DNA of 36,975 nt from Clostridia bacterium (GTDB lineage Bacteria > Bacillota > Clostridia > DUPQ01). Position numbers and translations under genes: made by a program. Of the stretch, positions 9,696-35,687 are shown piece by piece. The notes beneath the pieces are model-generated. The model did no database searches. It was not told the origin of the DNA and was given only the letters and a program-made list of their open reading frames with translations. The stretch is taken from positions 1-36,975 of the forward strand of contig JAUUZE010000005.1 of the NCBI GenBank assembly GCA_030590175.1. Reading direction: 5' to 3'. The stretch's first letter is position 1; each line of letters starts with the position of its first letter.

Positions 9696-10136
9696 ATGTT
9701 TTTTGGAGAATACCTCCACCGAGTGGATGAAAAAGGAAGAACGATTATACCGCTTAAGTTCAGAGGTGAACTTGGCTCTTCATTTATGGTGGCAAAAAGC
9801 ACAGACAAATGTTTAATTCTTTATCCAATGGACGAATGGATGAAAGTTGTTAGAAATATTGAAGCTCAACCTTTTTCAGGAGAAGCAATGCGAAGAACAA
9901 TTAGACAGTTTTTAGCAGGAGCTTGTGAGTGTGAAGTAGATAAACAAGGTCGATTATTAATTCCTATAACATTGCGAGAGTACGCTGGCATTAAAACAGA
10001 AGTAAATATGAATGGTATGGGATCAAAAGCTGAAATATGGGATGCAGACACATGGGTTACTTACAGAGATCATAAAGCTAATGAACAAAAGGAAATTGAT
10101 GCTGCTACTAAAGCAAGAGAATTATTAGGCTTTTAA
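9696..10136 (+). CDS. mraZ: MraZ, transcriptional regulator of the dcw cluster
   Basis: A 146-residue protein with two swapped-hairpin AbrB/SpoVT-like halves, each with the MraZ signature: DEKGR (11-15) followed by TIIPLKFR, and DKQGR (82-86) followed by LLIPITLREYA. The length equals typical MraZ (~143-150). MraZ forms a ring-like oligomer that binds repeats in front of its own operon and controls dcw expression, and such repeats are visible here. The ribosome site is weak (GTAGGG close to the ATG), which together with the repeats may keep expression low. The next gene, rsmH, starts 1 nt after its stop, the universal mraZ-rsmH order. Confidence 0.97.
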   Translation: MFFGEYLHRVDEKGRTIIPLKFRGELGSSFMVAKSTDKCLILYPMDEWMKVVRNIEAQPFSGEAMRRTIRQFLAGACECEVDKQGRLLIPITLREYAGIKTEVNMNGMGSKAEIWDADTWVTYRDHKANEQKEIDAATKARELLGF

Positions 10137-20553: not shown

Positions 20554-22670
20554 TATTTTATTTCGCTTTTTACTTCTATAGTTAAAAGAGCTTTTTGTGT
20601 ACTTTTATTTGGTTGTCCTTCATCAATATATATTGTGTATTCTCCATCTAATATAACTCGTTTTCCTTCATCAGTAATAAAGGATAATGCTTGTTCATCC
20701 AATGTAAAAGTTATTTCTTTTTGTTGATTAACTTTAAAAAACTCATTACTAAATCGCTTTAGTTGATAATGTGGAGACTTCATAGATGTTTTTGGTGTTT
20801 TTATATATAACTGAATAACATTATTACTATCATATGGACCATCATTTATAACTTTGATTGTAACTTCATATAAGTAATCACTTTTTTTATTAATATTAAT
20901 ATTACCAAAGGAAAACTTTGAGTAGGTTAAACCGAAACCAAATGGGAAAAGTGGAGCTTCTTTAAGATATCTATATGTTTGAGTAGTTAACTCATATTGA
21001 TCATAAGAGGGAAGTTGCTTAATAGAGTTATAAAAAGTAACAGGTAGCTTACCACTAGGTGAAAAATCACCAGCTAATAGGTTTGCAACTGCTTTTCCAC
21101 CTAATGCTCCTGGATACCAAGCTTGTATTATTGCATCTGCATGTTCATTAGCTGTAACCAAAGAAACACAACTACCACTTAAGTTAACAATAATTAGTGG
21201 TTTGTTAATTGTTGAAATTTTACTTATTAATTGATTTTGTAATCCTGGTAATTCAATATCTTCTCTATCACCACCACCAAATTCAGGATAACGAGGATCA
21301 GCTTCTTCACCTTCAATCAAAGAATTAATACCAGTTACCAAAATGGTTACATCACATGCTTTGGCACAAGATATGGCTTCTGAAATAAGTGAGGTTTCAT
21401 CATCTCGCAATGTTGTATTGGCAATATGACATCCTTTTGAATATTTAATTTCACAATCGCTGAATTTTTCAATGATTCCCTCTAAAATAGTACTATATCT
21501 TGAAGGAATTCCTTTATAGTTAGCCAAAAGAACTTCTCTATCATCTGCATTTGGTCCTATAACTGCAATACTTTTCACATTAGATTTTAAAGGTAGAATT
21601 CCACTATTTTTTAGTAATACTAATGATTTTTCAGCTACTTTAATTGCATAATCGCGATGTTTATTACTATCGTTAACCTCATAAGGTATGGAAGAGTAAG
21701 GGACTTTATCATCATCATCAAACATTCCTAATTTAAATTTAGCGACTAACAATCGCTTAACAGCTTTATTGATTTGTTCTTCTGTAATTATATTCTCTTC
21801 ATAAGCAAGAGTTAATGATTCAAATGCTTTGCCACAGTTTAAATCACAACCGTTTTTAACAGCCATAGCAGCTGATTCTTGAGGCGTTTTTGTTAAATGA
21901 TGGTGTAAGTGTAAATCAATTATGGCATGACAATCAGATACAACAAATCCTTTAAATGAAAATTCATCTCGTAAAATATCCAAAAGGAAAGTTCTAGAAG
22001 CACAACAGGCTTCTCCATTAGTTCTATTATATGCTCCCATTATTGAATACGCTTGTCCTTCTACAATACACTCTTTAAATGCTGGTAGGTAGGTTTCTCT
22101 AAGATCTTTTTTTGATACTACTGCATCAAAATGATGACGATCACTTTCAGGTCCACTATGAACTAAATAATGTTTTGGGGTTGCAATCGTTTTTAGGTAT
22201 TTAGGATGATCTCCTTGCATCCCTTTAATGAATGAAATACCCATTCGACCAGTTAAATAGGGATCTTCACCATATGTTTCGTGTCCACGACCCCATCTAG
22301 GATCTCTAAAAATATTAATATTAGGACTCCACATTGTTAGTCCTTTATAAATTCCCATGTCATTTTGTCTTTTATATTCATGGTGTTTTGCTCGAGCTTC
22401 ATCTGAAATATATGTGGCAGTTTGATAAACCATTTGTTTATCAAATGTGGCGGCCAAAGCAATGGCTTGTGGAAACACTGTGGCGGTTCCAGCCCGTGCT
22501 ATACCATGCAATGCTTCGTTCCACCAAGTATAGGCTGGAATTGATAATCTATCAATTGCAGGTGAGAAATGAAGCATCTGTGAAACTTTTTCTTCGATTG
22601 TCATTAATGATAATAAAATTTCTGCTCGTTTTTCAAAAGATAGCTGTTGATTTTCATATGGATAATTCAT
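20550..22670 (-). CDS. Glycoside hydrolase family 3 beta-glycosidase (beta-xylosidase/glucosidase type)
   Basis: A 706-residue GH3 enzyme releasing terminal beta-linked sugars. The N-terminal TIM-barrel domain shows WWNEALHGIAR (49-59), MWSPNINIFRDPRWGRGHE (113-131), the KH substrate pair (166-167) and the nucleophile Asp246 in GFVVSDCHAI. The alpha/beta sandwich (about 335-570) has EGEEADPR and GGGDRE, and a fibronectin-III-like tail ends the protein. WNEALHGIA and VVSDC are common in the xylosidase-like branch, but substrate specificity is uncertain. No signal peptide is seen, so it acts in the cytoplasm on imported oligosaccharides. AAGGAG lies 7 nt before the ATG. It is divergent from the exporter operon, with a LacI-operator-like sequence over its likely -10 box. 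Confidence 0.93.
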   Translation of the reverse strand: MNYPYENQQLSFEKRAEILLSLMTIEEKVSQMLHFSPAIDRLSIPAYTWWNEALHGIARAGTATVFPQAIALAATFDKQMVYQTATYISDEARAKHHEYKRQNDMGIYKGLTMWSPNINIFRDPRWGRGHETYGEDPYLTGRMGISFIKGMQGDHPKYLKTIATPKHYLVHSGPESDRHHFDAVVSKKDLRETYLPAFKECIVEGQAYSIMGAYNRTNGEACCASRTFLLDILRDEFSFKGFVVSDCHAIIDLHLHHHLTKTPQESAAMAVKNGCDLNCGKAFESLTLAYEENIITEEQINKAVKRLLVAKFKLGMFDDDDKVPYSSIPYEVNDSNKHRDYAIKVAEKSLVLLKNSGILPLKSNVKSIAVIGPNADDREVLLANYKGIPSRYSTILEGIIEKFSDCEIKYSKGCHIANTTLRDDETSLISEAISCAKACDVTILVTGINSLIEGEEADPRYPEFGGGDREDIELPGLQNQLISKISTINKPLIIVNLSGSCVSLVTANEHADAIIQAWYPGALGGKAVANLLAGDFSPSGKLPVTFYNSIKQLPSYDQYELTTQTYRYLKEAPLFPFGFGLTYSKFSFGNININKKSDYLYEVTIKVINDGPYDSNNVIQLYIKTPKTSMKSPHYQLKRFSNEFFKVNQQKEITFTLDEQALSFITDEGKRVILDGEYTIYIDEGQPNKSTQKALLTIEVKSEIKY

Positions 22671-22711
22671 AATAACTCCTTGTTATAAAATGTAAATAAT
22701 TTGTGAACATT

Positions 22712-22728
22712 TAGTAAAAAGTATACTA
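22712..22728. promoter_or_regulatory. Degenerate LacI-type operator in the divergent intergenic region
   Basis: TAGTAAAAAGTATACTA resembles the operator at 3803-3818: its left 8 bases match TAGTAAAC in 7 and its right 8 match GTTTACTA in 7, with one extra central base. It overlaps TATACT on the minus strand (22720-22725), a candidate -10 for the GH3 gene, and sits where a -35 of the exporter promoter would be. The extra base changes half-site spacing, so binding is uncertain. Confidence 0.35.
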
Positions 22729-22743
22729 CAATTTTTTTATTAA

Positions 22744-22752
22744 TGCTATAAT
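22744..22752 (+). promoter_or_regulatory. Extended -10 promoter of the ABC exporter operon
   Basis: TGcTATAAT (22744-22752) is an exact extended -10 element 28 nt ahead of the first candidate GTG. The -35 position (about 22724-22729) holds TACTAC, a poor hexamer, and overlaps the operator-like sequence. Confidence 0.6.
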
Positions 22753-22779
22753 CGAACAATATGATGAAAAAAGGTTAGA

Positions 22780-23763
22780 GTGTTTATTGTGAAAAAAAAT
22801 ATATTATTAATCATAGTAGTTATAGTGATATCAACTTTCTTATCTGGATGTATGTTTTTACCTAAAGAAGATGAGAGACTTTCTCCACCAATTATTGAAT
22901 CAAAAGCAACAGAATATAAGACTGAAGCAGTATCATATGGAACTGTTTCAAAGGATGTTAGTGCATTTGGATCATTTAAACCTGTAAATGAAATCGCTTA
23001 TTCATTTAAGTATTTGGGAGGAACATTTCTACAGTTCTTTGTAAGTAAAAATGACGATATCGTTGTAGGACAAATTATAGCTGAATTAGATACTGGTGAT
23101 TTAGATAAGGACATAAGAGATAGCGAAATAGAATTAAAAAGGGCACAACTCACATTTGATAGATCTGTTGAATTATATAACAATAATCAAATTAGTGAAT
23201 ATGATTATCAAATTGCCCAATTAAATTATCAAAAAGTATTAAATTCACATAATGATTTAATATTAATTAAAGAGCAATCACAAATTGTTGCAGACGAAAA
23301 TGGCTCAATTTCTTACTTAGCACCCCTTGAAGAAGGAGATCAGGTAACAAAAGGAAATTTAGTTTTTAAAATTGTTTTAAATAACGAAATGAAATTAACT
23401 TGTATTGGTAGTGGTATTTATAAATTTGATTCTGATATGCCTGTAGTAATTGAATCACTAAACTTTCAAACAGAAGGAATTATAACAGTTTCTAGCCATA
23501 ATAGTATGGTGGTGGTTCCCAATGAATTTAACGAAGATTGGGGAATTGGAACATCTGTTATGGTTACACAAAATTTAGATACTGTTGAAAATGTGTTAAT
23601 GGTCAACCAAAAAGCTATTAAAACATTTGGTGGTAGAACTTATGCTAAGATATTAGAAGATGGTGTTCCAATAGAAAAAGAAGTGGTACTTGGACAGACT
23701 AATGGTAGATACTACGAAGTGATATCAGGATTAGTTGAAGGCGAATTAGCCATTATTTATTAG
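22780..23763 (+). CDS. Lipoprotein adaptor of ABC exporter (HlyD/MFP-like), alpha type, copy 1
   Basis: A 327-residue predicted lipoprotein: hydrophobic N-terminus ending in lipobox LSGC (Cys24 from the GTG at 22780). GTG 22789 (KKNILLIIV...) is an equally good start; AAGG at 22771 favours 22780. After the anchor come a biotinyl/lipoyl-like half-motif (KNDDIVVGQIIAELDTGDL, about 93-111), a coiled-coil hairpin (about 112-165), the second half-motif (ADENGSISYLAPLEEGDQV) and a beta domain ending GLVEGELAIIY, the usual order in membrane fusion adaptors. It resembles the adaptor at 29382 more than those at 28303 and 33394. It probably joins the FtsX-type permease encoded 9 nt downstream on the outer face of the membrane. 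First gene of the exporter operon. Confidence 0.85.
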   Translation: MFIVKKNILLIIVVIVISTFLSGCMFLPKEDERLSPPIIESKATEYKTEAVSYGTVSKDVSAFGSFKPVNEIAYSFKYLGGTFLQFFVSKNDDIVVGQIIAELDTGDLDKDIRDSEIELKRAQLTFDRSVELYNNNQISEYDYQIAQLNYQKVLNSHNDLILIKEQSQIVADENGSISYLAPLEEGDQVTKGNLVFKIVLNNEMKLTCIGSGIYKFDSDMPVVIESLNFQTEGIITVSSHNSMVVVPNEFNEDWGIGTSVMVTQNLDTVENVLMVNQKAIKTFGGRTYAKILEDGVPIEKEVVLGQTNGRYYEVISGLVEGELAIIY

Positions 23764-23772
23764 GAGAAATAC

Positions 23773-26676
23773 ATGCTTAGATTAGTACTTAGAAAAATAG
23801 TTAATAATAAATGGTTGGTATTATGTCTTTTGATTGGTAGTGTGTTAGCAGTAGCCGTAGTTAGTTCTATACCAATATACTCTAGTGGCATGCTACAACG
23901 TATGCTAGTAAAAGATTTTGAAACAACACAAGAGGAAACTAATATTCATCCAGCTACTTATGAATTTGTTAGCAGTTGGTCAAATCTTAATGTATTAGAA
24001 GACCGAATTAATTTATTTGAATATTATGATAGTAAAATTAAAGATGATATGTCAAAAAATATACCAATGAGTATTTTAACCGATTTTACATTATTGGAAA
24101 CTTCAAATTTTCTTTCAGTAGATATTAGAGGATGGGATCTATATTTAGAAGAAGTAGCTAAAGAAATGATGTTTCCAACTACAAGATTAAATCGTATTAA
24201 TATTTATGGTATGACAAATTTAGAAAATAATGTCAAAGTAATTTCTGGGCGAATGTATGAAAAAGAACCAATAGAAAGTATTAATTCTATAACTGGAAAA
24301 ACAGAGTTTATGTATGAAGTCATTGTTAGCTCAGAAGTCATGAAACGTAATAATTATGTTTTAAATGGAGAATATGCAATTATTGAAGCTAAAAATGATG
24401 TTGAGTATTTAGATAAGTTTAAAATTGTTGGTGTTGTTGAAATGCAAGAAGACAAATCATCATATTATACATTTGACAGTTATGGATTATATATGGATGC
24501 AGATGTCTTTTATAGCGATTTTATTAAAACAGAAGAGTATAGCCTTGATACTACTAATTGGTATTATGCATATAATTACTATGAATTATCATTAACAGAA
24601 ACCAAAGATATTTTAACTCAATATGATGAGAATGGCACATGGATTGTTAATAACCATGGATATATGAAACACAGAATGTCATTTGCTCCAATTTTACAAG
24701 ATTACATGGACCGTGCCAGTCGATTATCAGGTTTGCTTATTTTGTTAGTTATTCCCGTTATTTTAATGATTAGTTTTTATGTATCAATGATTGCACAATT
24801 GATTATGGAACAAGAAAAAAATGAAATTGCCATGTTAGAAAGTCGTGGTGCATCTAGAAAACAAATATTCAAGATTTATTTTTATGAGAGTTTATTAATT
24901 GGAGCTATTTCATTTGTTGCTGGCATTATATCGGCAATATTCCTGTGTAGATTATTAGGAGCATCAAATGGTTTTATGGAATTTGTAAACCGAGCTCAAA
25001 TGGACATTAATCTAAGTTGGGAAGCAATACTTTATGGCTTCATTTGTGCTTTATTCTTTATTATAATGATGGTATTTCCAGCTATTAAAGCATCAAAATT
25101 TACTATTGTTCAATATAAACAAGGCAAAGATATAATAAGCAAAAAACCATTTTGGCAAAAATTATATTTAGATATTATATTGCTTGCTGTGGCTTTGTGG
25201 GCACTAAATAATTACAATACATTTAAAGACAGTATTGGATTATCAGGAGATGGGCAGATTGACTATTTGATCTTCTTTGCAGTTACTTTCTTTATTTTAG
25301 GTTTAAGTTTAGTAATTATGAGAATATATCCATTACTTATTAACTTACTATTCAAATCAACTAAACGATTTATGTCACCACCTATGTATGCTGCATTTAC
25401 ATATGTAGGCCGTGGTGGTTCCATGAAACAATTTATTATGATTTTCTTGATTTTAGCTTTAGGTGTAGGAATTTTTAATGCTAATAGTGCTAGAACCATA
25501 AATGAAAACCTTGTAGATATTGTGAAGCATCAGTATGCTACTGATGTTTCTATTACCCTAAGCAATTGGATTGTAGATGAAAATGGTGAATTAGTACAAG
25601 AGGAAGGCTCTGAAGTAATAGCCAAAGATTTATTGAAATTTGAAAAAATTAAATCAAGTGAATTAATAGATACTGCTACAAAAGTTGCTAAGTATAAAAC
25701 ATTGATTAAAAAATATAGTACATATGGTGGCGCTACACTTAGCTCAACCTTGATAGGAATAACCCCAGAGGATTATGGCCGTGTAGTATGGACACGAGAC
25801 GATTTACTAACTGTTCATATTAACTTTTATTTAAATTTAATGGCATCCTATCCAGATGGTGTAATTATTTCTTCATTTACAGCGAATGAATTAGGAGTAA
25901 ATCCTGGAGATTTTCTTTCAATTGAAGTTCCTGACATAGATAATATTATTGAAGCACCTATATTAGCAATTGTAGATAACTGGCCTGGGTATAATCCTTA
26001 TACAGGGTACGATTTTGCAACAAATAGAACAGTAACAAATGATGATGTTTCATTTGGGTTTGTAGTTATGCATTATGATTTACTTTTATCAAATGCAGGT
26101 GATATTGATTACATGATTTGGATGAAAAAAAGTGATGGTGTGTTAGATAGTGAGATAAATAGCTTCTTATCAGAAAATGAAATTACTATTTCTTCTGGTG
26201 AATATGCAGACTTTGAAGTGTCTGAACAGAAAAAAGATCCAATGGTATTAGGAATGAATGGAATGCTTACATTAGATTTTATTGTCACAATGATTATTTG
26301 TGGTGCTGGATTTATAATTTTCTGGATTTTATCAATTAGGCAGAGGGTTTTACAATTTGGTATTTTTAGAGCTATGGGATTAAGCAAAAAAGAACTTATT
26401 CATATAATTTTCTGGGAGCAGTTACTAATTTCAGCAGTGGCAATAGTTCTTGGAATTGTAATTGGAGGAATATCGTCAGATGTCTTTGTTCCACTATTTG
26501 AATTAATCAGTGCACAAAGTGGACGTTTAATTGGATTTAAAGTGTTCTCGTTTAGAGAAGATTATTATAGAATTTATATAATTGTTGCAGCTATGTTAAT
26601 TATTGGTATTTCTACCATTGGACGATTCATTACTCATATTAAGATGGATCAAGCTGTTAAACTAGGAGAGGATTAA
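23773..26676 (+). CDS. Large FtsX-type ABC transporter permease, copy 1
   Basis: A 967-residue permease with about ten membrane segments. TM1 (14-36) is followed by a large extracellular domain (about 37-315). A first FtsX core follows (319-445, with VSMIAQLIMEQEKNEIAML and ESRGASRKQIFKIYFYE), two linker helices (464-517), and a helix at 552-570 leading to a second ectodomain (about 571-835). The second FtsX core ends the protein (FGIFRAMGLSKKEL), with final residues KMDQAVKLGED. These large two-core permeases differ from the 4-TM MacB type and have no single well-characterised function known to me. AGGAG precedes the ATG. The homologue at 30392 shares start, core and end motifs (KMDQAIKLGED), so the two may form a heterodimer. 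Confidence 0.88.
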   Translation: MLRLVLRKIVNNKWLVLCLLIGSVLAVAVVSSIPIYSSGMLQRMLVKDFETTQEETNIHPATYEFVSSWSNLNVLEDRINLFEYYDSKIKDDMSKNIPMSILTDFTLLETSNFLSVDIRGWDLYLEEVAKEMMFPTTRLNRINIYGMTNLENNVKVISGRMYEKEPIESINSITGKTEFMYEVIVSSEVMKRNNYVLNGEYAIIEAKNDVEYLDKFKIVGVVEMQEDKSSYYTFDSYGLYMDADVFYSDFIKTEEYSLDTTNWYYAYNYYELSLTETKDILTQYDENGTWIVNNHGYMKHRMSFAPILQDYMDRASRLSGLLILLVIPVILMISFYVSMIAQLIMEQEKNEIAMLESRGASRKQIFKIYFYESLLIGAISFVAGIISAIFLCRLLGASNGFMEFVNRAQMDINLSWEAILYGFICALFFIIMMVFPAIKASKFTIVQYKQGKDIISKKPFWQKLYLDIILLAVALWALNNYNTFKDSIGLSGDGQIDYLIFFAVTFFILGLSLVIMRIYPLLINLLFKSTKRFMSPPMYAAFTYVGRGGSMKQFIMIFLILALGVGIFNANSARTINENLVDIVKHQYATDVSITLSNWIVDENGELVQEEGSEVIAKDLLKFEKIKSSELIDTATKVAKYKTLIKKYSTYGGATLSSTLIGITPEDYGRVVWTRDDLLTVHINFYLNLMASYPDGVIISSFTANELGVNPGDFLSIEVPDIDNIIEAPILAIVDNWPGYNPYTGYDFATNRTVTNDDVSFGFVVMHYDLLLSNAGDIDYMIWMKKSDGVLDSEINSFLSENEITISSGEYADFEVSEQKKDPMVLGMNGMLTLDFIVTMIICGAGFIIFWILSIRQRVLQFGIFRAMGLSKKELIHIIFWEQLLISAVAIVLGIVIGGISSDVFVPLFELISAQSGRLIGFKVFSFREDYYRIYIIVAAMLIIGISTIGRFITHIKMDQAVKLGED

Positions 26677-26689: not shown

Positions 26690-27370
26690 TTGAATTACAT
26701 TTATGAAACAAAAGGTATATGTAGAGAATTTATTCAAGGTAGACAAACAGTTCATGCCTTGAAAGATATTAATATTAAGATTGAAGAAGGCGCCTTTACA
26801 ATCCTTAAAGGGACTTCAGGATCTGGTAAAACAACCTTAATGAATATATTAGGTGGACTAGACCGACCAACTAGTGGGCAAGTGTTCTTTGATAAAAAAG
26901 AACTAACCGCCATAAGTGACTCAGAACGAGATATGATAAGAAGAAAAAATATCGGCTTTGTCTTTCAATCTGTTGCATTAATATCAGTTATGGATGCTTA
27001 TGAAAATGTGGAATTTGGTTTGCGAGTATCAGGAGCTCTAAGAAAAGACTGGAAACAATTAACTAGAAACAGTTTAATTAGAGTGGGACTTGAAAAGAGA
27101 ATGAATCATAAACCATTCCAACTATCAGGTGGAGAACAACAACGTGTTGCAATATCTAGAGCAATTGCTAATAAACCTAGAATTGTATTTGCTGATGAAC
27201 CAACAGCTGAACTAGATACACATTTAGGATTACAGATTGTAAAACTCTTTAAAACTTTGGTAACAGAATCAGGATTAACTATAGTCATGAGTACTCATGA
27301 CCCAAGTATGATTGAAATTGCTGATCATGTTATTTCATTAGAGGATGGTGAAGTTATTGATGAACGATAG
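26690..27370 (+). CDS. ABC transporter ATPase, first subunit
   Basis: A 226-residue stand-alone nucleotide-binding domain of the LolD/MacB/FtsE type. Walker A is GTSGSGKTT (41-49), the Q-loop Gln93 in FVFQSVALI, the signature LSGGEQQR (145-152), Walker B IVFADEP (165-171) with D-loop AELD, and the switch His203. It starts at TTG 26690 behind AAGGGG, 13 nt after the permease stop. It powers one of the FtsX-type permeases, probably paired with the second ATPase that overlaps its 3' end. A 29-bp stretch around the signature motif is identical in DNA to the second ATPase gene. Confidence 0.95.
   Translation: MNYIYETKGICREFIQGRQTVHALKDINIKIEEGAFTILKGTSGSGKTTLMNILGGLDRPTSGQVFFDKKELTAISDSERDMIRRKNIGFVFQSVALISVMDAYENVEFGLRVSGALRKDWKQLTRNSLIRVGLEKRMNHKPFQLSGGEQQRVAISRAIANKPRIVFADEPTAELDTHLGLQIVKLFKTLVTESGLTIVMSTHDPSMIEIADHVISLEDGEVIDER
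27119..27147 (+). repeat. 29-bp direct repeat, copy in first ATPase gene
   Basis: The 29 bases that start caactatcaggtggagaaca and end caacgtgt are identical at 27119-27147 and 27843-27871, 724 bp apart. They encode the ABC signature LSGGEQQRV. Identity at silent positions exceeds what the protein motif requires. Confidence 0.85.
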
Positions 27371-28322
27371 TAGTACAAATTTATATACTGGAGAAGATGA
27401 GAATTATTATGATCCTAAAAATGTCATAACTTGTGAGAATCTTGTAAAAATTTACAAAACAAAAGATACTGAAGTTGTAGCATTACAAGGACTTGATTTG
27501 GAAATAAAATATGGAGAAATGATGGCTATTATTGGGAACAGTGGTAGTGGGAAATCTACTCTATTAAATATGATCGGTGGTCTTGATAGACCGTCAGCTG
27601 GAAAATTGATTGTTAATGGACACAATCTCCTTAGAGTTAAAAAAACTGCGCTAACAGACTATAAACGAAATACAGTAGGGTTTGTGTGGCAAAATAATGC
27701 GCGGAATCTGATTCCTTATTTATCTGCTAAACAGAATGTGGAATTACCAATGATTTTAGCTAATCGAGCTGACTTTAAGAAGCGAAGTGCAGAATTGTTG
27801 AAAATAGTTGGATTAGAAGAGCGTATGAGAAATAAACTTAGTCAACTATCAGGTGGAGAACAACAACGTGTAGCTATTGCAATAGCCATGGCTAATGAAC
27901 CTAAGATAATATTAGCCGATGAACCAACTGGAGCTGTTGACTCTGATACAGGTAAACAAATATTTAATGCTTTTAGAAAATTAAATAGAGAAACAGGTGT
28001 AACAATTATAATCGTTACACATGATAGAGGAGTTGCTAAAAATGTAGATAGAGTAGTAGCAATTTCTGATGGTCGTACATCAAGTGAGTATATTCGTAAG
28101 ATAAGCTATAAAGAAGAACTAGAAGAACTTGATAGAATGTCAGGTGTTGAAGAAAGTGATACTCATGAAGAACTGGTTGTTGTTGATAGGCATGGACGTT
28201 TAAAATTACCAGAAGAATATCTAGGAGCGACTGGTATCAGTAAAAATAGCCGTATTAAAATGGATGTAGAAGACAATAAAATCGTCATATATAGACAGAA
28301 AGATGACAATGAAGAATCATAA
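27345..28322 (+). CDS. ABC transporter ATPase, second subunit, with C-terminal AbrB/SpoVT-like domain
   Basis: The track starts at ATG 27345, but ATG 27360 (MNDSSTNLYTG) is the likelier start: it gives an 11-bp overlap with the upstream gene and leaves room for a ribosome site. In track numbering Walker A is GNSGSGKST (64-72), the signature LSGGEQQR (168-175), Walker B IILADEP (188-194) and the switch His226. A charged linker follows (about 253-275), then about 40 residues reading VVVDRHGRLKLPEEYLG to VEDNKIVIYR (277-317). This is the pattern of an AbrB/SpoVT swapped-hairpin domain (V-D-x-x-G-R-h-x-h-P, then E-D-x-x-I-h-h). In standalone proteins that fold dimerises and binds DNA. Its role here is unknown: dimerisation of the ATPase, or transcriptional feedback. 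The adaptor gene starts inside its 3' end. Confidence 0.9.
   Translation: MVKLLMNDSSTNLYTGEDENYYDPKNVITCENLVKIYKTKDTEVVALQGLDLEIKYGEMMAIIGNSGSGKSTLLNMIGGLDRPSAGKLIVNGHNLLRVKKTALTDYKRNTVGFVWQNNARNLIPYLSAKQNVELPMILANRADFKKRSAELLKIVGLEERMRNKLSQLSGGEQQRVAIAIAMANEPKIILADEPTGAVDSDTGKQIFNAFRKLNRETGVTIIIVTHDRGVAKNVDRVVAISDGRTSSEYIRKISYKEELEELDRMSGVEESDTHEELVVVDRHGRLKLPEEYLGATGISKNSRIKMDVEDNKIVIYRQKDDNEES
27843..27871 (+). repeat. 29-bp direct repeat, copy in second ATPase gene
   Basis: Second copy of the 29-bp identical stretch described at 27119-27147, again over the ABC signature motif. Confidence 0.85.
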
Positions 28323-29376
28323 AAAATATTTATTATTAATAGTACTACTTATAGTTATGTCACTACTATTTTCAGGGTGTATGTATTTTATGCCTATTGA
28401 ACGTACAATATATGAACCTGAATTATTACCTTCAGAAAAACTGATTTTGCCAACTATAAATGTTATTGAAGGTGATTTACGAATTGTATATGATAAAGAA
28501 GCTATTATTGTTGCAGACATTGAAAATACTGAAATTGTAAGTTGTACTACTCTTGGAACAATTAGCGAATTGTATGTTAAAGTTGGAGAAGTTGTTAAGA
28601 AAAATCAATTAGTGGGAATTCTTGACATGAAATCTATTAATGAACAAGTATTTAAACAAGAAATTACTGTAGAAAAAGCTAAAATGAATTATGATAGGCA
28701 ATTAGGATTATATAATATCGGAAAGATTGATTTTTACACATTAGAGTTTGCACGTTTATCTTTAGAGGCATATGAGAATTATTTATCTGATTTATATGAA
28801 AAACAAGTTGCTCATTATCTATATGCCACATCTTCTGGAACTATTGTTGAAATTTTTAAATTTGAAGGAGATCCAGCTAAAGGTGATGTGCTAAGCATTT
28901 GTCCATTAAGTAATTTTTTAATTCAATATGAAATACCAGCAACTGATAATCTTGCCCCAACAGATGCATTACTAATGAGATTGCCTAGTGGAAAGTCAAA
29001 TGATGATGGGAAAGTTAAGATTATTTATGATGGTAATCAATATACTGGCTATATTTATAGAACTTCTTCACAGTATTCATTGGCATATGATTACTTTGGA
29101 AATGACGTCTATGGTCAAATAGCTTTTACAATTTTACCAGAACAATTAGTTTTAGGAAAAACAACAACCATTAGATATGTGGAAGATGAAGCTTTTAATG
29201 TAATGGTTATTCCTATTTCAACTGTTTATCCAAATGATGATGGTACATTTTATACCTATGTAGTAGTCAACAATGAAATTGAATTTAGGATTATTGAGAT
29301 TGGAATTACTGATGGAATTTTTTATGAAGTAAAAAGTGGTCTAGTGGCAGGCGACAAAGTTTTAAAGAGTAGGTAA
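28303..29376 (+). CDS. Lipoprotein adaptor of ABC exporter, beta type, copy 1
   Basis: A 357-residue predicted lipoprotein with lipobox FSGC (Cys26; ATG 28309 is an alternative start six bases on). Adaptor layout: TISELYVKVGEVVKKNQLVG as the first biotinyl/lipoyl-like strand pair, a helical hairpin (about 120-165, EITVEKAKMNYDRQL), TSSGTIVEIFKFEGD as the second, and the C-terminal VKSGLVAGDKVLKS typical of membrane fusion proteins. It is clearly closest to the adaptor at 33394 (shared EQVF.QEI..EKA...Y and IVEIFK patterns). It overlaps the second ATPase gene by about 14-20 bp, so the two are likely translated in a coupled way. The ribosome site is weak. Confidence 0.85.
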   Translation: MTMKNHKKYLLLIVLLIVMSLLFSGCMYFMPIERTIYEPELLPSEKLILPTINVIEGDLRIVYDKEAIIVADIENTEIVSCTTLGTISELYVKVGEVVKKNQLVGILDMKSINEQVFKQEITVEKAKMNYDRQLGLYNIGKIDFYTLEFARLSLEAYENYLSDLYEKQVAHYLYATSSGTIVEIFKFEGDPAKGDVLSICPLSNFLIQYEIPATDNLAPTDALLMRLPSGKSNDDGKVKIIYDGNQYTGYIYRTSSQYSLAYDYFGNDVYGQIAFTILPEQLVLGKTTTIRYVEDEAFNVMVIPISTVYPNDDGTFYTYVVVNNEIEFRIIEIGITDGIFYEVKSGLVAGDKVLKSR

Positions 29377-29381
29377 CATTA

Positions 29382-30374
29382 ATGAATAATATAAAGAGTA
29401 AAAAAGGAATATTGTGGATTATAGGTTTATCACTTATTTTTTCACTTATTGGATGTCAGAAGGTGATTGTTAATCCTCTTACTATTCCTGAGTATATAAA
29501 AAAAGAGCCAAATTATTTAACTGAAATAATTGTTAAGGTTGATTTATACGATTCTAAAACTATATATGCAAAAGTTCATCCAATTCGCGAGGAAACCTAT
29601 TCGTTTGATTCAACTGGCTATATTGAAAGAATTATTCCAGTAAGGGGAGATGAAGTTGTAAAAGGACAATTACTAGCTATTTTAAACAATGCTGATTTAT
29701 TAAAAGAAGCAAGAGATATGGAAATCACCTATCAGGTAGAAAAATTAAAAATTGAAAAACTTCAAAAAATATATGATTCAACTGGTAGTGGAAAATATGA
29801 CTTAGATATAGCTATTCTTGATTTTAAAATTACTCAATATCAATATGACCAGTTACAAGTTCGAGTAGATGATTTGAATATTTATGCAACATTTGATGGT
29901 GTTGTTTCTGCAATTAAAGCTACTGTAAATAAATATGTTACTTCATCTAATGGGATTATTTCAGTAATTGATGAAAGTGATACATATATTTCATTTACAG
30001 ATCCTGATATACCAGGGTTAATAATTGGATCAATTGTTAACTTATATATAACTAAAGATGAAATAGTTGAAGCAACTGTTATTGATATTGACAAAAAAGA
30101 AGAAATTATTATTATTGATACTGGTATTGAAGATATACGGCTAGAAGATATTGGACAATTGTTTAAAGTTGAAATAATTTTAGATCAGGTGAATCAGGCA
30201 ATAGCAATAAAAGAAGGTTGGTTACATGAGGCTGCTGGTAGAGAGTTTGTCTATGTACTTGACAATGGAGTTATGACTGAACGGGAAATATCAAAGGGGA
30301 AACAACTTGGGGGATGGATTGAAATTTTACTTGGTCTTCAAGAAGGGGATGAGGTAATTGTTAATACTAATTAA
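29382..30374 (+). CDS. Lipoprotein adaptor of ABC exporter, alpha type, copy 2
   Basis: A 330-residue predicted lipoprotein with lipobox LIGC (Cys25). The order matches the first adaptor at 22780: GDEVVKGQLLAILNNADL, an alpha-hairpin (about 110-160), ATFDGVVSAIKATVNKYV, then a beta domain and LLGLQEGDEVIVN at the end. EETYSFDSTGYIERIIPVRG parallels NEIAYSFKYLGGTFLQFFVS of the first copy. It follows the beta adaptor after 5 nt with AGTAGG as ribosome site, and precedes the second permease by 17 nt, the same adaptor-permease order as at the start of the operon. Confidence 0.85.
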   Translation: MNNIKSKKGILWIIGLSLIFSLIGCQKVIVNPLTIPEYIKKEPNYLTEIIVKVDLYDSKTIYAKVHPIREETYSFDSTGYIERIIPVRGDEVVKGQLLAILNNADLLKEARDMEITYQVEKLKIEKLQKIYDSTGSGKYDLDIAILDFKITQYQYDQLQVRVDDLNIYATFDGVVSAIKATVNKYVTSSNGIISVIDESDTYISFTDPDIPGLIIGSIVNLYITKDEIVEATVIDIDKKEEIIIIDTGIEDIRLEDIGQLFKVEIILDQVNQAIAIKEGWLHEAAGREFVYVLDNGVMTEREISKGKQLGGWIEILLGLQEGDEVIVNTN

Positions 30375-30391
30375 TAATTACAAAACTTTTA

Positions 30392-33300
30392 ATGCTAAAA
30401 ATTGTAGTACGTAAAATCATATATAATCGATGGATTAGCATTAGTTTATTAATCTGTTGTACTTTAGCAATTGCTGTAGCAGGCGCAATTCCCATGTATT
30501 CATATTCTGTTATAAATAATAGTATATCAAATGAATTCGAAGATATGATTACCAATGGTGACGAAATTGGTATGACATATCAATTTGAAGCAAATTTTGA
30601 ATATGTTGATGAAAATCAACTATCTATTTATCAATTATATGATGAGAAGATTAATAGTACTCTAAGTAAAAAAATACATGCAGATATAATTGTTAATTAT
30701 AGTGAAGTTTCTTCAGTTAAATACAAAACAAAAAATATAAACAATCCTAATAATATTACAATTATTAGTAAAGATGTATATCAAATACCTGCAGGGTATA
30801 CTGACTTATATGTAACTGCAATTGAAAATTTTACTGAAATGGTTGGTATTTCAAAAGGACGTATGTACCAAGCAAATGATGAATATTTAGAAGTAGTTGC
30901 TACTGATGCTTTTATGAGGCAAAATAAATTTGAATTAGGTGAAATCTATGAAAATTACTTACTAGACGATGAAATCATAAAGGGAGGAACCTTTATGATT
31001 GTTGGTATTGTTTATGACAAAGATACTACAAATGGTTATTTAAACTTAACTAATCAACAAGTATATGCTGATATTAATATATTGAAATCCCAATTTACAG
31101 GTAGTGAAAGTTTTAAAATTGGTTTAGTTTCTTGGTTCTACATATATGATTTTTATACTTTTCAGTTATATAATGTGACTAAAACTGCAAAAGGATTAGC
31201 AGATAATGAACAATGGATAACTGATAATTATGGTTACCTTAGCCATCAAAGTAATTTTAATCATATAATCGCAAAATTTGAAGATAATGTGAAAAACACA
31301 TCACTAATAGTTGTTATGCTTATTATCCCAATTATATTTATGATTGCATTATATATTTCTATGATAACTAATTTATTAATTAATAATGAAAAAAATGAAA
31401 TTGCTACAATGAAAAGTAGAGGAGCTACTAAAAAACATATTATAAAAATATATTTTTATAATAGTTTACTTATCTCGATAGTGTCGTACTTTTTAGGGAT
31501 TTTGCTTGCAATATTTATCTGCAAACTGTTAGGTGCATCAAATGGATTTTTAGAATTTATTACTCGTGATGATATAGTAGTTAAAGTTAATTGGAAAGTT
31601 TTCTTATATGCTTTTATTGCATTAGTATTTTTTAATATATCAATGTTAATTCCAGTTTTTCGCTATTCAAAATATGACATAATTCAACTTAAAGCAGATG
31701 AATTACTATTTAATCACAAACCATTTTGGGAAAAAATGTATATTGATGTTATTTTATTAGCCATTTCTATTTATTCAATTATTAATTATCAAAACTTTAG
31801 GTCACTTATTACACTAACATCTGAACAGGCTTCCTATTATCCAATTTTTATAGCTGCGTCCTTTTTTATGCTTGGTAGTTGTATGCTTTTTACTAGAATT
31901 TATCCATTTATGATGAAGCTATTTAGCTCTATTGGAAAGAGAAGTAAACAAGTAACTCTATATAGCTCTTTATTATTTGCTGCACGTGGAGATAAAATAA
32001 GACAAACTGTTATGATATTTTTAATGTTTGCTGTTTGTATTGGAATTTTTAATGCTAATAGTGCCAGATCAATAAATGCAAATTTAGTAGATGAAATTAA
32101 ACATCAAAATCAAAGTGATATTATTATAAAACCAATTGACTATATTGTTAGACCTACAGAACGACGTATTTCACATACTCTAGCTGTATTAATTTATCAA
32201 GAGACAAGAATTAGACCACCATTCAATGGAGAATATTATTATTTAAAAGTATATGAAAAGGTAATGACTTTAGGTATTATACAAAATCAACGACGATTAT
32301 ATGAAGGGCTAAAAGAATATGAAAACTTTATTATGGTTACATCGATATTACAATCTCAAGGTATAACAAATTTACCAGTTGAAAGAGAAATTCCCAGATA
32401 TTTTTATAGTAGTAGTCGAGATACTGATACAAAGTTTGTTGAAAATCCTGATAATATTAATTTACAGATTTTAGGAATTAATCCTGAGGAATACTCAAAA
32501 GCTGTCTGGTATAGAGAAAACATTAATGAACATCCATTAAACTATTATTTAAGTTTATTAATAACATATCGTAATGGAATGATAATTTCTAGAAATTTAG
32601 CAGAAGAAAAGAACTTGGCTGTTGGAGATACATATCGTATTTATTTAAAAGATACAGAACGACCAATTGACTTATTCATATTAGAAATTGTAGATTACTG
32701 GCCTGGATACACTTCACAATCTAACTACAATAAGCCTTTAGATGAATATGTAAAAGATGAAGATAATATTATGGGACTTTGTGTGATGGATTATAATTTC
32801 TTAGTTTCATACACTGGTGAAAATGATTTAAAATTTATTGCTAAGAAAAAAGAGGGTGTTAAGGATAGCGAAGTAATCAGGTATATGATTGATAACAATT
32901 TAGGTGTACTTGGTTCTCATTTTACTGACTATGAAATTGAAAGCATGAAAAAAGAAGTATCAATTTACACCATGAATAGTACATTAACATTAAACTTTTT
33001 AATAAGCCTAATTATTTGTGCAATTGGTTTTGTGATTTTCTGGTCTGTATCTATTAAAAAAAGAGAATTACAATTTGGTATTTTGCGCTCAATGGGAATT
33101 ACAAAAAAAGAATTAATGTTAATTATTTTTGGAGAACAAGCTTGGGTATTTTTAATTGCTATTGTAGCTGCAATTCCCATAGGAAGTATTGCTAGTAATA
33201 TATTTATTCCAATATATTCATTTATTAATGAAAAAAATATGATGATGCTTGATTTTATTATGAAAAAAGACCCATTCGATTACATTAGTATTTATGGCAT

Positions 33301-33394
33301 GTTAGTTATAATGATTGTTGCTGGAATATTTATTATTAAAAGTATTATTAACAAACTTAAGATGGATCAAGCTATTAAGTTAGGAGAAGACTAA
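30392..33394 (+). CDS. Large FtsX-type ABC transporter permease, copy 2
   Basis: A 1000-residue homologue of the permease at 23773. The N-terminus MLKIVVRKIIYNRW aligns with MLRLVLRKIVNNKW, which confirms the start. NNEKNEIATMKSRGATKKHI and LLGASNGFLEFI mark the first FtsX core, LQFGILRSMGITKKELM the second, and KMDQAIKLGED the end. The second ectodomain is longer than in copy 1 and holds an insertion around RPTERRISHTLAV to RRLYEGLKEYEN. WPGYTSQSNYN corresponds to WPGYNPYTGYD of copy 1. There is no recognisable Shine-Dalgarno in the 17 nt before the ATG, unlike its neighbours. No ATPase accompanies this copy, so it probably shares the two ATPases encoded upstream. Confidence 0.88.
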   Translation: MLKIVVRKIIYNRWISISLLICCTLAIAVAGAIPMYSYSVINNSISNEFEDMITNGDEIGMTYQFEANFEYVDENQLSIYQLYDEKINSTLSKKIHADIIVNYSEVSSVKYKTKNINNPNNITIISKDVYQIPAGYTDLYVTAIENFTEMVGISKGRMYQANDEYLEVVATDAFMRQNKFELGEIYENYLLDDEIIKGGTFMIVGIVYDKDTTNGYLNLTNQQVYADINILKSQFTGSESFKIGLVSWFYIYDFYTFQLYNVTKTAKGLADNEQWITDNYGYLSHQSNFNHIIAKFEDNVKNTSLIVVMLIIPIIFMIALYISMITNLLINNEKNEIATMKSRGATKKHIIKIYFYNSLLISIVSYFLGILLAIFICKLLGASNGFLEFITRDDIVVKVNWKVFLYAFIALVFFNISMLIPVFRYSKYDIIQLKADELLFNHKPFWEKMYIDVILLAISIYSIINYQNFRSLITLTSEQASYYPIFIAASFFMLGSCMLFTRIYPFMMKLFSSIGKRSKQVTLYSSLLFAARGDKIRQTVMIFLMFAVCIGIFNANSARSINANLVDEIKHQNQSDIIIKPIDYIVRPTERRISHTLAVLIYQETRIRPPFNGEYYYLKVYEKVMTLGIIQNQRRLYEGLKEYENFIMVTSILQSQGITNLPVEREIPRYFYSSSRDTDTKFVENPDNINLQILGINPEEYSKAVWYRENINEHPLNYYLSLLITYRNGMIISRNLAEEKNLAVGDTYRIYLKDTERPIDLFILEIVDYWPGYTSQSNYNKPLDEYVKDEDNIMGLCVMDYNFLVSYTGENDLKFIAKKKEGVKDSEVIRYMIDNNLGVLGSHFTDYEIESMKKEVSIYTMNSTLTLNFLISLIICAIGFVIFWSVSIKKRELQFGILRSMGITKKELMLIIFGEQAWVFLIAIVAAIPIGSIASNIFIPIYSFINEKNMMMLDFIMKKDPFDYISIYGMLVIMIVAGIFIIKSIINKLKMDQAIKLGED

Positions 33395-34482
33395 TGAGAA
33401 AGAAACAATTATTTAAGTTAATTGCTTTATTAGTAATGATGATATTACTACTTTCTTCTTGTGACTTATATTTACCTAAAAAGGAGATAATATATAAAAC
33501 TAATCTTATTACTGGAGATGAGTATGAACTTCAAACAGTTTCACCTTTTATTGGGAATCTGGTTGTTGAGCGTCGTAAATATGGTACATTTATTCCTGAT
33601 GAAGAAGAAACATTTACAATTAACTGTAAAATAAACTCAGTTATTAGTGAAATATTTATAAGAGTGAATGATCATGTAGAAAAAGGACAATTAATTGCCA
33701 AAGCTAACAGTGAGAAAATTGCTGAACAAGTATTTTACCAAGAAATATACACAGAAAAAGCTGTACTTAGTTATGAAAAAGCTAAAGATCAATTTGGAAA
33801 TAAACTTATTGATCAATATCAACTAGAATTACTTAGATTGATTGTTGTTAGTGCTAAGAACCAACTTGACGACTACCGTGAACTATATAATGATAGTTTT
33901 ATATATGCTAGTGATGAGGGCGAAATAATAGAAATATTTAAATCAGTCAGTGATTACAGTATTGGGAAAATAGCTTTAGTTTGTAATAAAGACAATGGAA
34001 TTTTGCGAGTTTCTACTGATAAAGAAGTAGATGAAGCTTTAATTAATTTTGGGGTTGCTACACAAAAAGTTATATCTAGTATTGATTATATATATATGCG
34101 TTTAAAAAATAAAGATGAAATAAAAATAAAAGTCATTGATCAAGTATATGATGGTATTATTTTTAGAGACATAAATACCTTTATTCTTCAATATGGGAAT
34201 GAATTTGAAATGAATTATATAGATATCCTTTTCAAAGATGCACCTGATGATATATACTTTCAACAGAATATGACAGCAATATATATTGAAACCCAACTAA
34301 ATGATATATTGCTACTTGAAACAATAGCTATATATTCTGATGTTGATGATAAAAAATATGTATATTTTGTTGAAAATAATAGAACAATTATCAAAGAAGT
34401 AATAACAGGATTAAGTTCAAATGGATATACACAAATTATTAGTGGACTAGTTGAAGGGGATAAGGTTTTTATAGTTAAATGA
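33394..34482 (+). CDS. Lipoprotein adaptor of ABC exporter, beta type, copy 2
   Basis: A 362-residue predicted lipoprotein with lipobox LSSC (Cys23). It parallels the adaptor at 28303: SVISEIFIRVNDHVEKGQLI, EQVFYQEIYTEKAVLSYEKA in the alpha-hairpin, EGEIIEIFKSVSDYSIGK, and IISGLVEGDKVFIVK at the C-terminus. Its ATG overlaps the permease stop by one base (TAATG) with AGGAG upstream. Its own TGA stop overlaps the ATG of the oxidoreductase that follows. This is the last transport gene of the operon. Confidence 0.85.
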   Translation: MRKKQLFKLIALLVMMILLLSSCDLYLPKKEIIYKTNLITGDEYELQTVSPFIGNLVVERRKYGTFIPDEEETFTINCKINSVISEIFIRVNDHVEKGQLIAKANSEKIAEQVFYQEIYTEKAVLSYEKAKDQFGNKLIDQYQLELLRLIVVSAKNQLDDYRELYNDSFIYASDEGEIIEIFKSVSDYSIGKIALVCNKDNGILRVSTDKEVDEALINFGVATQKVISSIDYIYMRLKNKDEIKIKVIDQVYDGIIFRDINTFILQYGNEFEMNYIDILFKDAPDDIYFQQNMTAIYIETQLNDILLLETIAIYSDVDDKKYVYFVENNRTIIKEVITGLSSNGYTQIISGLVEGDKVFIVK

Positions 34483-35687
34483 AAAAGTATGTATTAGTAG
34501 GAGCTAGTGGTAGAGGATTCAATACTTATGCCAAAAACATGGTAAAACATTTTAGCGAACATACAAAGATTGTAGGTATGTTTGACATTAATACTACTAG
34601 AATGAATTATATTAATCAACAATTGGATACATCAATTCCCACGTATACAGATTTTGATTTAATGATGACTGAATGTAAACCTGATTGTGCAATAATTACA
34701 ACAGTAGATGCATATCATCATGAATTTATTATTAAAGTATTACAATATAATTGTGATGTAATTGTGGAAAAGCCACTAGCAACTGATGAAAAAAAAGCTG
34801 TAGCTATAAAAGAGGTTTATCAAAAGTCTAATAATAATATTACAATTACATTTAATTATCGATTTACTCCATATGTTACTGCCATTAAACAATTGTTAAC
34901 TACAAATATTATTGGAGAAATTCATCATGTTGATTTTGAATATTTACTAGACAGAAGTCATGGAGCAGATTATTACAGAAGATGGCATAGATATATGAAT
35001 AAATCAGGTGGATTACTTGTACACAAATCTACTCATCATTTTGATTTAGTAAACTGGTGGTTAGATAAACGACCACTATCGGTTTCTGCTCATGGTTCAT
35101 TAGAGTTTTATGGTGCAAATGGTGAAATAAGAGGGGAGAGATGTTCTACTTGTCCCCATCATGAAGAATGCGAATTTTATGTTAATTATATTGAACAAGA
35201 TTACTATAAACAATTCTATTTTGATGCAGAATTTGAAGATGGTTATCATAGGGATGGTTGTGTTTTTGATAAAGCAATTGATATATATGACACTATGTCA
35301 GTACGAGTACTTTATGAAAACAATACAACCTTAACCTATTCATTAACAGCTTTTAATCCTTACGAGGGATTTAAAGCCTCTATTTTAGGTACTAAAGGAC
35401 GAATAGAAATTGCAGAATACCATAGTGGTGAGCATAAAGATGATAAAACTTACACTATTCATATTTATGATTTACAAGGTAATCATACAAAAAAGGTTAT
35501 TAATAAATCATCTGGTGACCATGGTGGAGGAGATCAATTACTATTAAAAATGCTCTTTTTAGAAAATATAAAAGATCCACTTGGTCATATGGCCTCATTA
35601 CAGGCGGGAATCAACTCTGCTATGATTGGAATTGCTGCAAATGAGAGTATTAGTAGTAAGAAGAATGTAAATATTACAGAATTGTGA
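34479..35687 (+). CDS. Gfo/Idh/MocA-family oxidoreductase with four-cysteine insert, coupled to exporter
   Basis: Predicted NAD(P)-dependent sugar/polyol-type dehydrogenase of 402 residues. The N-terminal Rossmann motif is LVGASGRGFN (6-15), with VEKP at 96-99. The catalytic domain shows YRRWH (166-170) and HKSTHHFDLVNWW (182-194). A cysteine insert (Cys222, Cys225, Cys231, Cys261; C-x2-C-x5-C-x29-C) and HGGGDQ (348-353) match the oxidoreductase at 2600. Its ATG overlaps the last adaptor's stop (ATGA) and AAGGGG lies some 20 nt upstream, so translation is coupled to the exporter. A weak terminator follows, then a DegT-type aminotransferase. The linkage suggests that the exported substrate or its precursor is a sugar or polyol derivative; this is inference. 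Confidence 0.9.
   Translation: MKKYVLVGASGRGFNTYAKNMVKHFSEHTKIVGMFDINTTRMNYINQQLDTSIPTYTDFDLMMTECKPDCAIITTVDAYHHEFIIKVLQYNCDVIVEKPLATDEKKAVAIKEVYQKSNNNITITFNYRFTPYVTAIKQLLTTNIIGEIHHVDFEYLLDRSHGADYYRRWHRYMNKSGGLLVHKSTHHFDLVNWWLDKRPLSVSAHGSLEFYGANGEIRGERCSTCPHHEECEFYVNYIEQDYYKQFYFDAEFEDGYHRDGCVFDKAIDIYDTMSVRVLYENNTTLTYSLTAFNPYEGFKASILGTKGRIEIAEYHSGEHKDDKTYTIHIYDLQGNHTKKVINKSSGDHGGGDQLLLKMLFLENIKDPLGHMASLQAGINSAMIGIAANESISSKKNVNITEL

Follow-up and report, generated by a model that had tools for sequence, protein, structure and literature searches.

The window analyzed here, a stretch of 36,975 nucleotides from a Clostridia bacterium, encodes an ABC ATPase (ATP2) that ends in a short extension resembling the DNA-binding domain of AbrB-type regulators. 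This locus raises the question of what such a domain does on the ATPase of a transporter. We put at roughly one in two the probability that ATP2 and its neighbor ATP1 form the ATPase pair of an exporter, and that the tail is a protein-protein module which ties two exporters together through their ATP2 tails.

The genes of the locus and the parts of ATP2 are listed in Table 1. The ATP2 translation contains ...VDRHGRLKLPEEYLGATGISKNSRIKMDVEDNKIVIYRQ..., identical to the segment quoted by an earlier reading made from the DNA letters alone (the sequence-only reading); translation could also start at a second in-frame ATG, at 27360. As that reading described, a complete nucleotide-binding domain precedes a charged linker and then the tail. 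The Walker A, signature, Walker B and H-loop motifs of the domain are intact. The nucleotide-binding domain is of the LolD/MacB type found in type VII exporters, and its score against the LolD equivalog TIGR02211, 224 bits, lies under the curated cut-off of 307.75. Confidence in the AlphaFold model falls below a pLDDT of 50 at linker residues 265-271. The domain had been placed at 28173-28296, which agrees with our mapping over residues 277-317, but it begins slightly earlier, at H273 (28161).

Table 1. Features of the exporter locus and of the tailed ATPase (window coordinates)
Feature	Position	Strand	Remarks
MraZ	9696-10136		same superfamily as the ATP2 tail
MFP1, HlyD/MacA-like adaptor	22780..23763	+	327 aa; RND_mfp 2.4e-20; lipobox-like N-terminus (LSGC)
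PERM1, permease with two FtsX domains (duplicated, MacB/YbbP-like)	23773..26676	+	967 aa
ATP1, partner ABC ATPase, no tail	26690..27370	+	226 aa; catalytic motifs intact
ATP2, type VII (MacB/LolD-like) ABC ATPase with AbrB-fold tail	27345..28322	+	325 aa; TIGR02211 LolD 1.6e-66, PF00005 4.6e-32
ATP2 nucleotide-binding domain	27423..28076	+	aa ~27-244
ATP2 family-specific Q-loop FVWQNNARNLIPYL	27681-27722	+	aa 113-126; exceeds that of the partner ATPase by two residues
ATP2 charged linker	28077..28160	+	aa ~245-272; predicted helix aa 255-264
ATP2 swapped-hairpin AbrB/MazE-fold domain	28161..28295	+	aa 273-317; from sequence profiles and predicted structure
MFP2, adaptor-like lipoprotein	28303..29376	+	start overlaps ATP2 stop
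MFP3, HlyD-like adaptor	29382..30374	+	
PERM2, second permease with two FtsX domains	30392..33394	+	1000 aa
MFP4, adaptor-like lipoprotein	33394..34482	+	

The window tail on its own matches the AbrB family PF04014 weakly (E = 0.0042; 17.5 bits against a cut-off of 24.7 bits), and its match to AbrB in the PDB (1z0r) has an E-value of 0.09. When 56 homologous tails were searched individually, however, 45 matched PF04014, the best at 5.3e-9, and 18 weakly matched PF02381 (MraZ); the curated PF04014 cut-off was exceeded by one (locus L054) of ten full-length members tested. A profile of the tails found B. subtilis AbrB as its top match in the PDB (4.4e-4), and its weak matches to SRP54 structures and SymE were low-scoring and without support from the fold search. 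In the predicted structure the tail adopts the beta-beta-alpha-beta-beta hairpin fold of the AbrB/MazE/SpoVT superfamily. The full-length AlphaFold model places a strand at residues 274-278, a helix at 290-296 and further strands at 304-309 and 312-317, with moderate confidence (about 60-81 per ten-residue block), and a model of the tail alone reached a pLDDT of 76.9. Foldseek comparison of the latter with the PDB returned AbrB, Abh, MazE, SpoVT or Sso7c4-type structures as all of its first 13 matches, with probabilities of 0.96-1.00 and E-values that are poor (0.03 upward) because the chain is so short; the match to AbrB 1yfb had a probability of 1.00, a TM-score of 0.78 by target and an rmsd of 1.4 over 47 columns.

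We also scored the tails with an independent profile built from standalone AbrB/SpoVT domains only. Real tails scored a median of 10.5 bits, compared with 8.4 bits for the best of 1980 shuffled tails and no more than 2.6 bits for the C-termini of 77 tail-less partner ATPases. The window tail scored 7.0 bits, a value reached by three of the 1980 shuffles, and the weakest real tail 1.9 bits, so that proof of the fold lies with the family and not with every single member. A chance likeness of an unrelated extension to AbrB would fit both the shuffles that reach the window score and the sub-threshold Pfam score of the window sequence, but the fold search and the family-level sequence matches converge on one superfamily; we rejected this explanation on the family-level evidence and consider it extremely improbable. 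It is thus nearly certain that the tail belongs to the swapped-hairpin superfamily, as the sequence-only reading had proposed.

The tail is fixed in this ATPase family as sampled, across many Firmicutes. Every one of the 11 genomes of the order has a close homologue that aligns over its full length, tail included; so do 41 of the 291 class genomes (E<=1e-70) and 13 of the 399 phylum genomes. A scan of genome contigs recovered 80 loci from Clostridia, Ruminococcus, Caldicoprobacter, Paenibacillus, Cohnella and others. All 99 distinct aligned homologues (Clostridia, Paenibacillaceae) carry the tail, in which E275, D280 and R284 are invariant and G283, P288, V278 and H273 nearly so. A search of 282 class genomes with the nucleotide-binding domain only (E<=1e-62) yielded a single match in each of 40 genomes, every ORF being at least 298 aa long, and no tail-less member; fixation of the tail is deduced from this result.

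The best sequence and fold matches of the tail in the PDB, the AbrB/SpoVT/MazE superfamily (PF04014; AbrB N-domain 1yfb, 1z0r), share its D-x-x-G-R-x-x-(I/L)-P core. The tail differs from these proteins in lying at the C-terminus of an ABC ATPase, in lacking the DNA-face residues R8, K9, R23 and R24, and in the family-specific conservation of H273, E275, Q286 and Y291. MraZ, which is encoded in the same window, has two hairpins per chain and is a free-standing transcription regulator, whereas the tail has one hairpin; we saw no evidence of a functional link between MraZ and the tail. Elsewhere in the same genome (L001:1330-1578), a canonical AbrB-like regulator (VRKVDELGR...ELRRSLG) adjoins a divergently transcribed ABC ATPase gene.

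The other genes of the locus point to an exporter. An FtsX-domain permease is encoded with the ATPases, as in the type VII systems YbbAP-TesA of E. coli, MacAB and LolCDE. The nucleotide-binding domain of ATP2 is closest to MacB, LolD and MJ0796, and among the solved relatives listed no match extends past about profile position 250. Each of the two window permeases is a duplicated protein, as is YbbP, and the adaptors resemble MacA; lipobox-like N-termini (e.g. FLSGC, LFSGC) on all four adaptors between 22780 and 34482 suggest that these are lipoproteins. The last adaptor gene is overlapped at its end by a GFO/IDH/MocA oxidoreductase gene (34479-35687); Caldicoprobacter (L046) has a 41% identical relative upstream of its ATPase pair. 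Positions 103-2320, some 20 kb upstream from the exporter genes, encode a LuxR-type response regulator and a HisKA_7TM-type histidine kinase.

An ATPase without a long tail is encoded upstream of the tailed ATPase in 77 of the 80 loci, the other three being cut by the contig end. None of the 73 partners paired by a strict overlap rule carried the tail when tested with the tail profile. The two ATPase types also differ in Q-loop spacing, which is 14 in 80/80 tailed ATPases and 12 in 76/77 partners, as would fit contacts of ATP1 and ATP2 to different halves of the permease. Every complete ORF of either type retains its active-site motifs, one unclear signature aside. Gene order varies: adaptor, permease, ATP1, ATP2 is typical of clostridia, and ATP1, adaptor, permease, ATP2 of Paenibacillus, while in Ruminococcus-type loci ATP1 and ATP2 are followed by an ORF of about 1000 aa that our window-derived permease profile does not recognize. 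With that profile, which misses the Ruminococcus-type ORF, permeases were found at 42 of the 80 related loci. A near relative (L035) shares the extended order of the window, with a second duplicated FtsX permease and extra adaptor-like lipoproteins; most other loci have one recognized permease, or none.

In E. coli, internal duplication allows one YbbP permease to bind two ATPases (PMC12646458). Since the recognized permeases are likewise duplicated FtsX proteins, the working ATPase is probably an ATP1-ATP2 heterodimer bearing one tail, which would dock on one permease. YbbAP differs in that both of its ATPases are YbbA (a 2:1:1 complex; PMC12646458), whereas the window has two different ATPases, one of them tailed. 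Read most simply, the locus encodes an asymmetric permease that carries a heterodimer of ATPases, although the two permeases of the window make other stoichiometries possible, such as an ATP2 homodimer on one and ATP1 on the other. The sequence-only reading had suggested that the tail could force ATPase pairing. Pairing is plausible, but not inside one transporter: with the tail on one ATPase of the pair, a homodimeric barrel cannot close within a single heterodimeric transporter and would have to link two.

We thus propose that ATP1 and ATP2 form an asymmetric pair that would drive a type VII (MacB/YbbAP-like) exporter made up of a duplicated FtsX permease, adaptor lipoproteins and the ATPases. 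The C-terminal ~45 residues of ATP2, an AbrB-superfamily swapped hairpin, would have become a protein-protein module. As the barrel needs two chains and the hairpin is found on ATP2 only, two ATP2 tails are the likeliest to interlock; such dimerization is expected by homology of fold, and bridging by the interlocked barrel, which fold and stoichiometry together suggest, would leave two exporter complexes tied, coupled or stabilized.

The alternatives to this proposal are, by falling likelihood, a docking platform, a domain regulating the ATPase and DNA binding. In the first, which we regard as unlikely though the strongest of the three, the barrel is closed by a hairpin or strand of another protein, which might be a further subunit or a free-standing regulator of the AbrB type; a consequence, equally unlikely, would be that the exporter is recruited to its partner or that a regulator is titrated. 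The positions that contact DNA in AbrB are hydrophobic in the tails (A/V, V, L) and conserved, and so are the family-specific H273, E275, Q286 and Y291, as at a protein interface. The genome encodes three stand-alone PF04014 proteins, and AbrB/Abh heterodimers are known (PMC4022651). An obligate partner gene would nevertheless be expected close by, and we noticed no AbrB-type partner in an unsystematic look through the conserved operon. Slightly less probable again is a C-terminal domain that regulates ATPase activity, perhaps in response to a ligand or to the state of transport. The tail lies where other ABC ATPases, MalK and MetN among them, carry such accessory domains, the linker contains a predicted helix, and MetN is among the Foldseek matches of the full model, mainly through its nucleotide-binding domain. 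However, these domains of MalK and MetN have folds unrelated to the tail, belong to importers, and act as pairs with one on each ATPase, whereas here one ATPase of the pair is tailed. We know of no AbrB-fold domain of comparable size that binds a ligand.

DNA binding, by which the tail would carry a signal from transport to transcription, was the other role suggested by the sequence-only reading, and we find it improbable. It is favored by the AbrB fold itself and by R15, one of the four proposed DNA-contact residues of AbrB (R8, R15, R23 and R24; PMC4022651, PMC5222340), which is kept in 98/98 tails. R15 is, however, part of the D-x-x-G-R core common to tails and standalone controls, and the R15A substitution weakens DNA binding by AbrB only about five-fold, so that single residues are not decisive (PMC4022651). 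The remainder of the arginine face is gone. A basic residue occupies the R8 position in none of 98 tails but in 31 of 32 standalone controls, the R23 position in 0/98 against 32/32, and the R24 position in 9/98 against 31/32; the K9 position is basic in no tail. R8 and R23 are mostly replaced by hydrophobic residues and R24 is acidic in 61/98 tails. Net charge over the barrel segment did not discriminate (-1.1 in tails, -0.8 in DNA-binding controls), but in the window the tail and linker together are acidic (net -9 from about aa 252), and the ATPase is expected at the membrane. A promoter and terminator scan of 22600-23000 gave no signal above shuffles. Judged by its residues, the tail is a domain that has lost most of the AbrB/SpoVT-type DNA-contacting face, and AbrB-type DNA binding is unlikely; since the 32 controls, the strongest PF04014 matches, are mostly SpoVT/AbrB, it is this type of face whose loss is demonstrated, and the tail may still bind nucleic acids in another mode. 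The tail probably joins pump subunits rather than controlling genes. More tentatively, and at somewhat less than even odds, we suggest that throughout a wide family of Firmicutes exporters a DNA-binding fold has become a transporter coupler, the interlocking tails on one ATPase of each pair making exporter dimers work in concert.

We found no description of an AbrB, SpoVT or swapped-hairpin domain on an ABC ATPase in the open-access literature, and the term "AbrB" is absent from a survey of B. subtilis ABC transporters and from a review of the MacB family. The architecture is conserved and apparently undescribed. As some members exceed the Pfam cut-off, domain databases probably list it for some proteins; most members tested fall under it and would therefore tend to be annotated routinely as plain ABC ATPases. 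If our reading is correct, a swapped-hairpin domain stripped of its DNA face is an obligatory component of an ABC ATPase, which cautions against equating an AbrB fold with a transcription factor, and this tail of about 45 residues would offer a testable handle on whether type VII exporters form higher-order assemblies.
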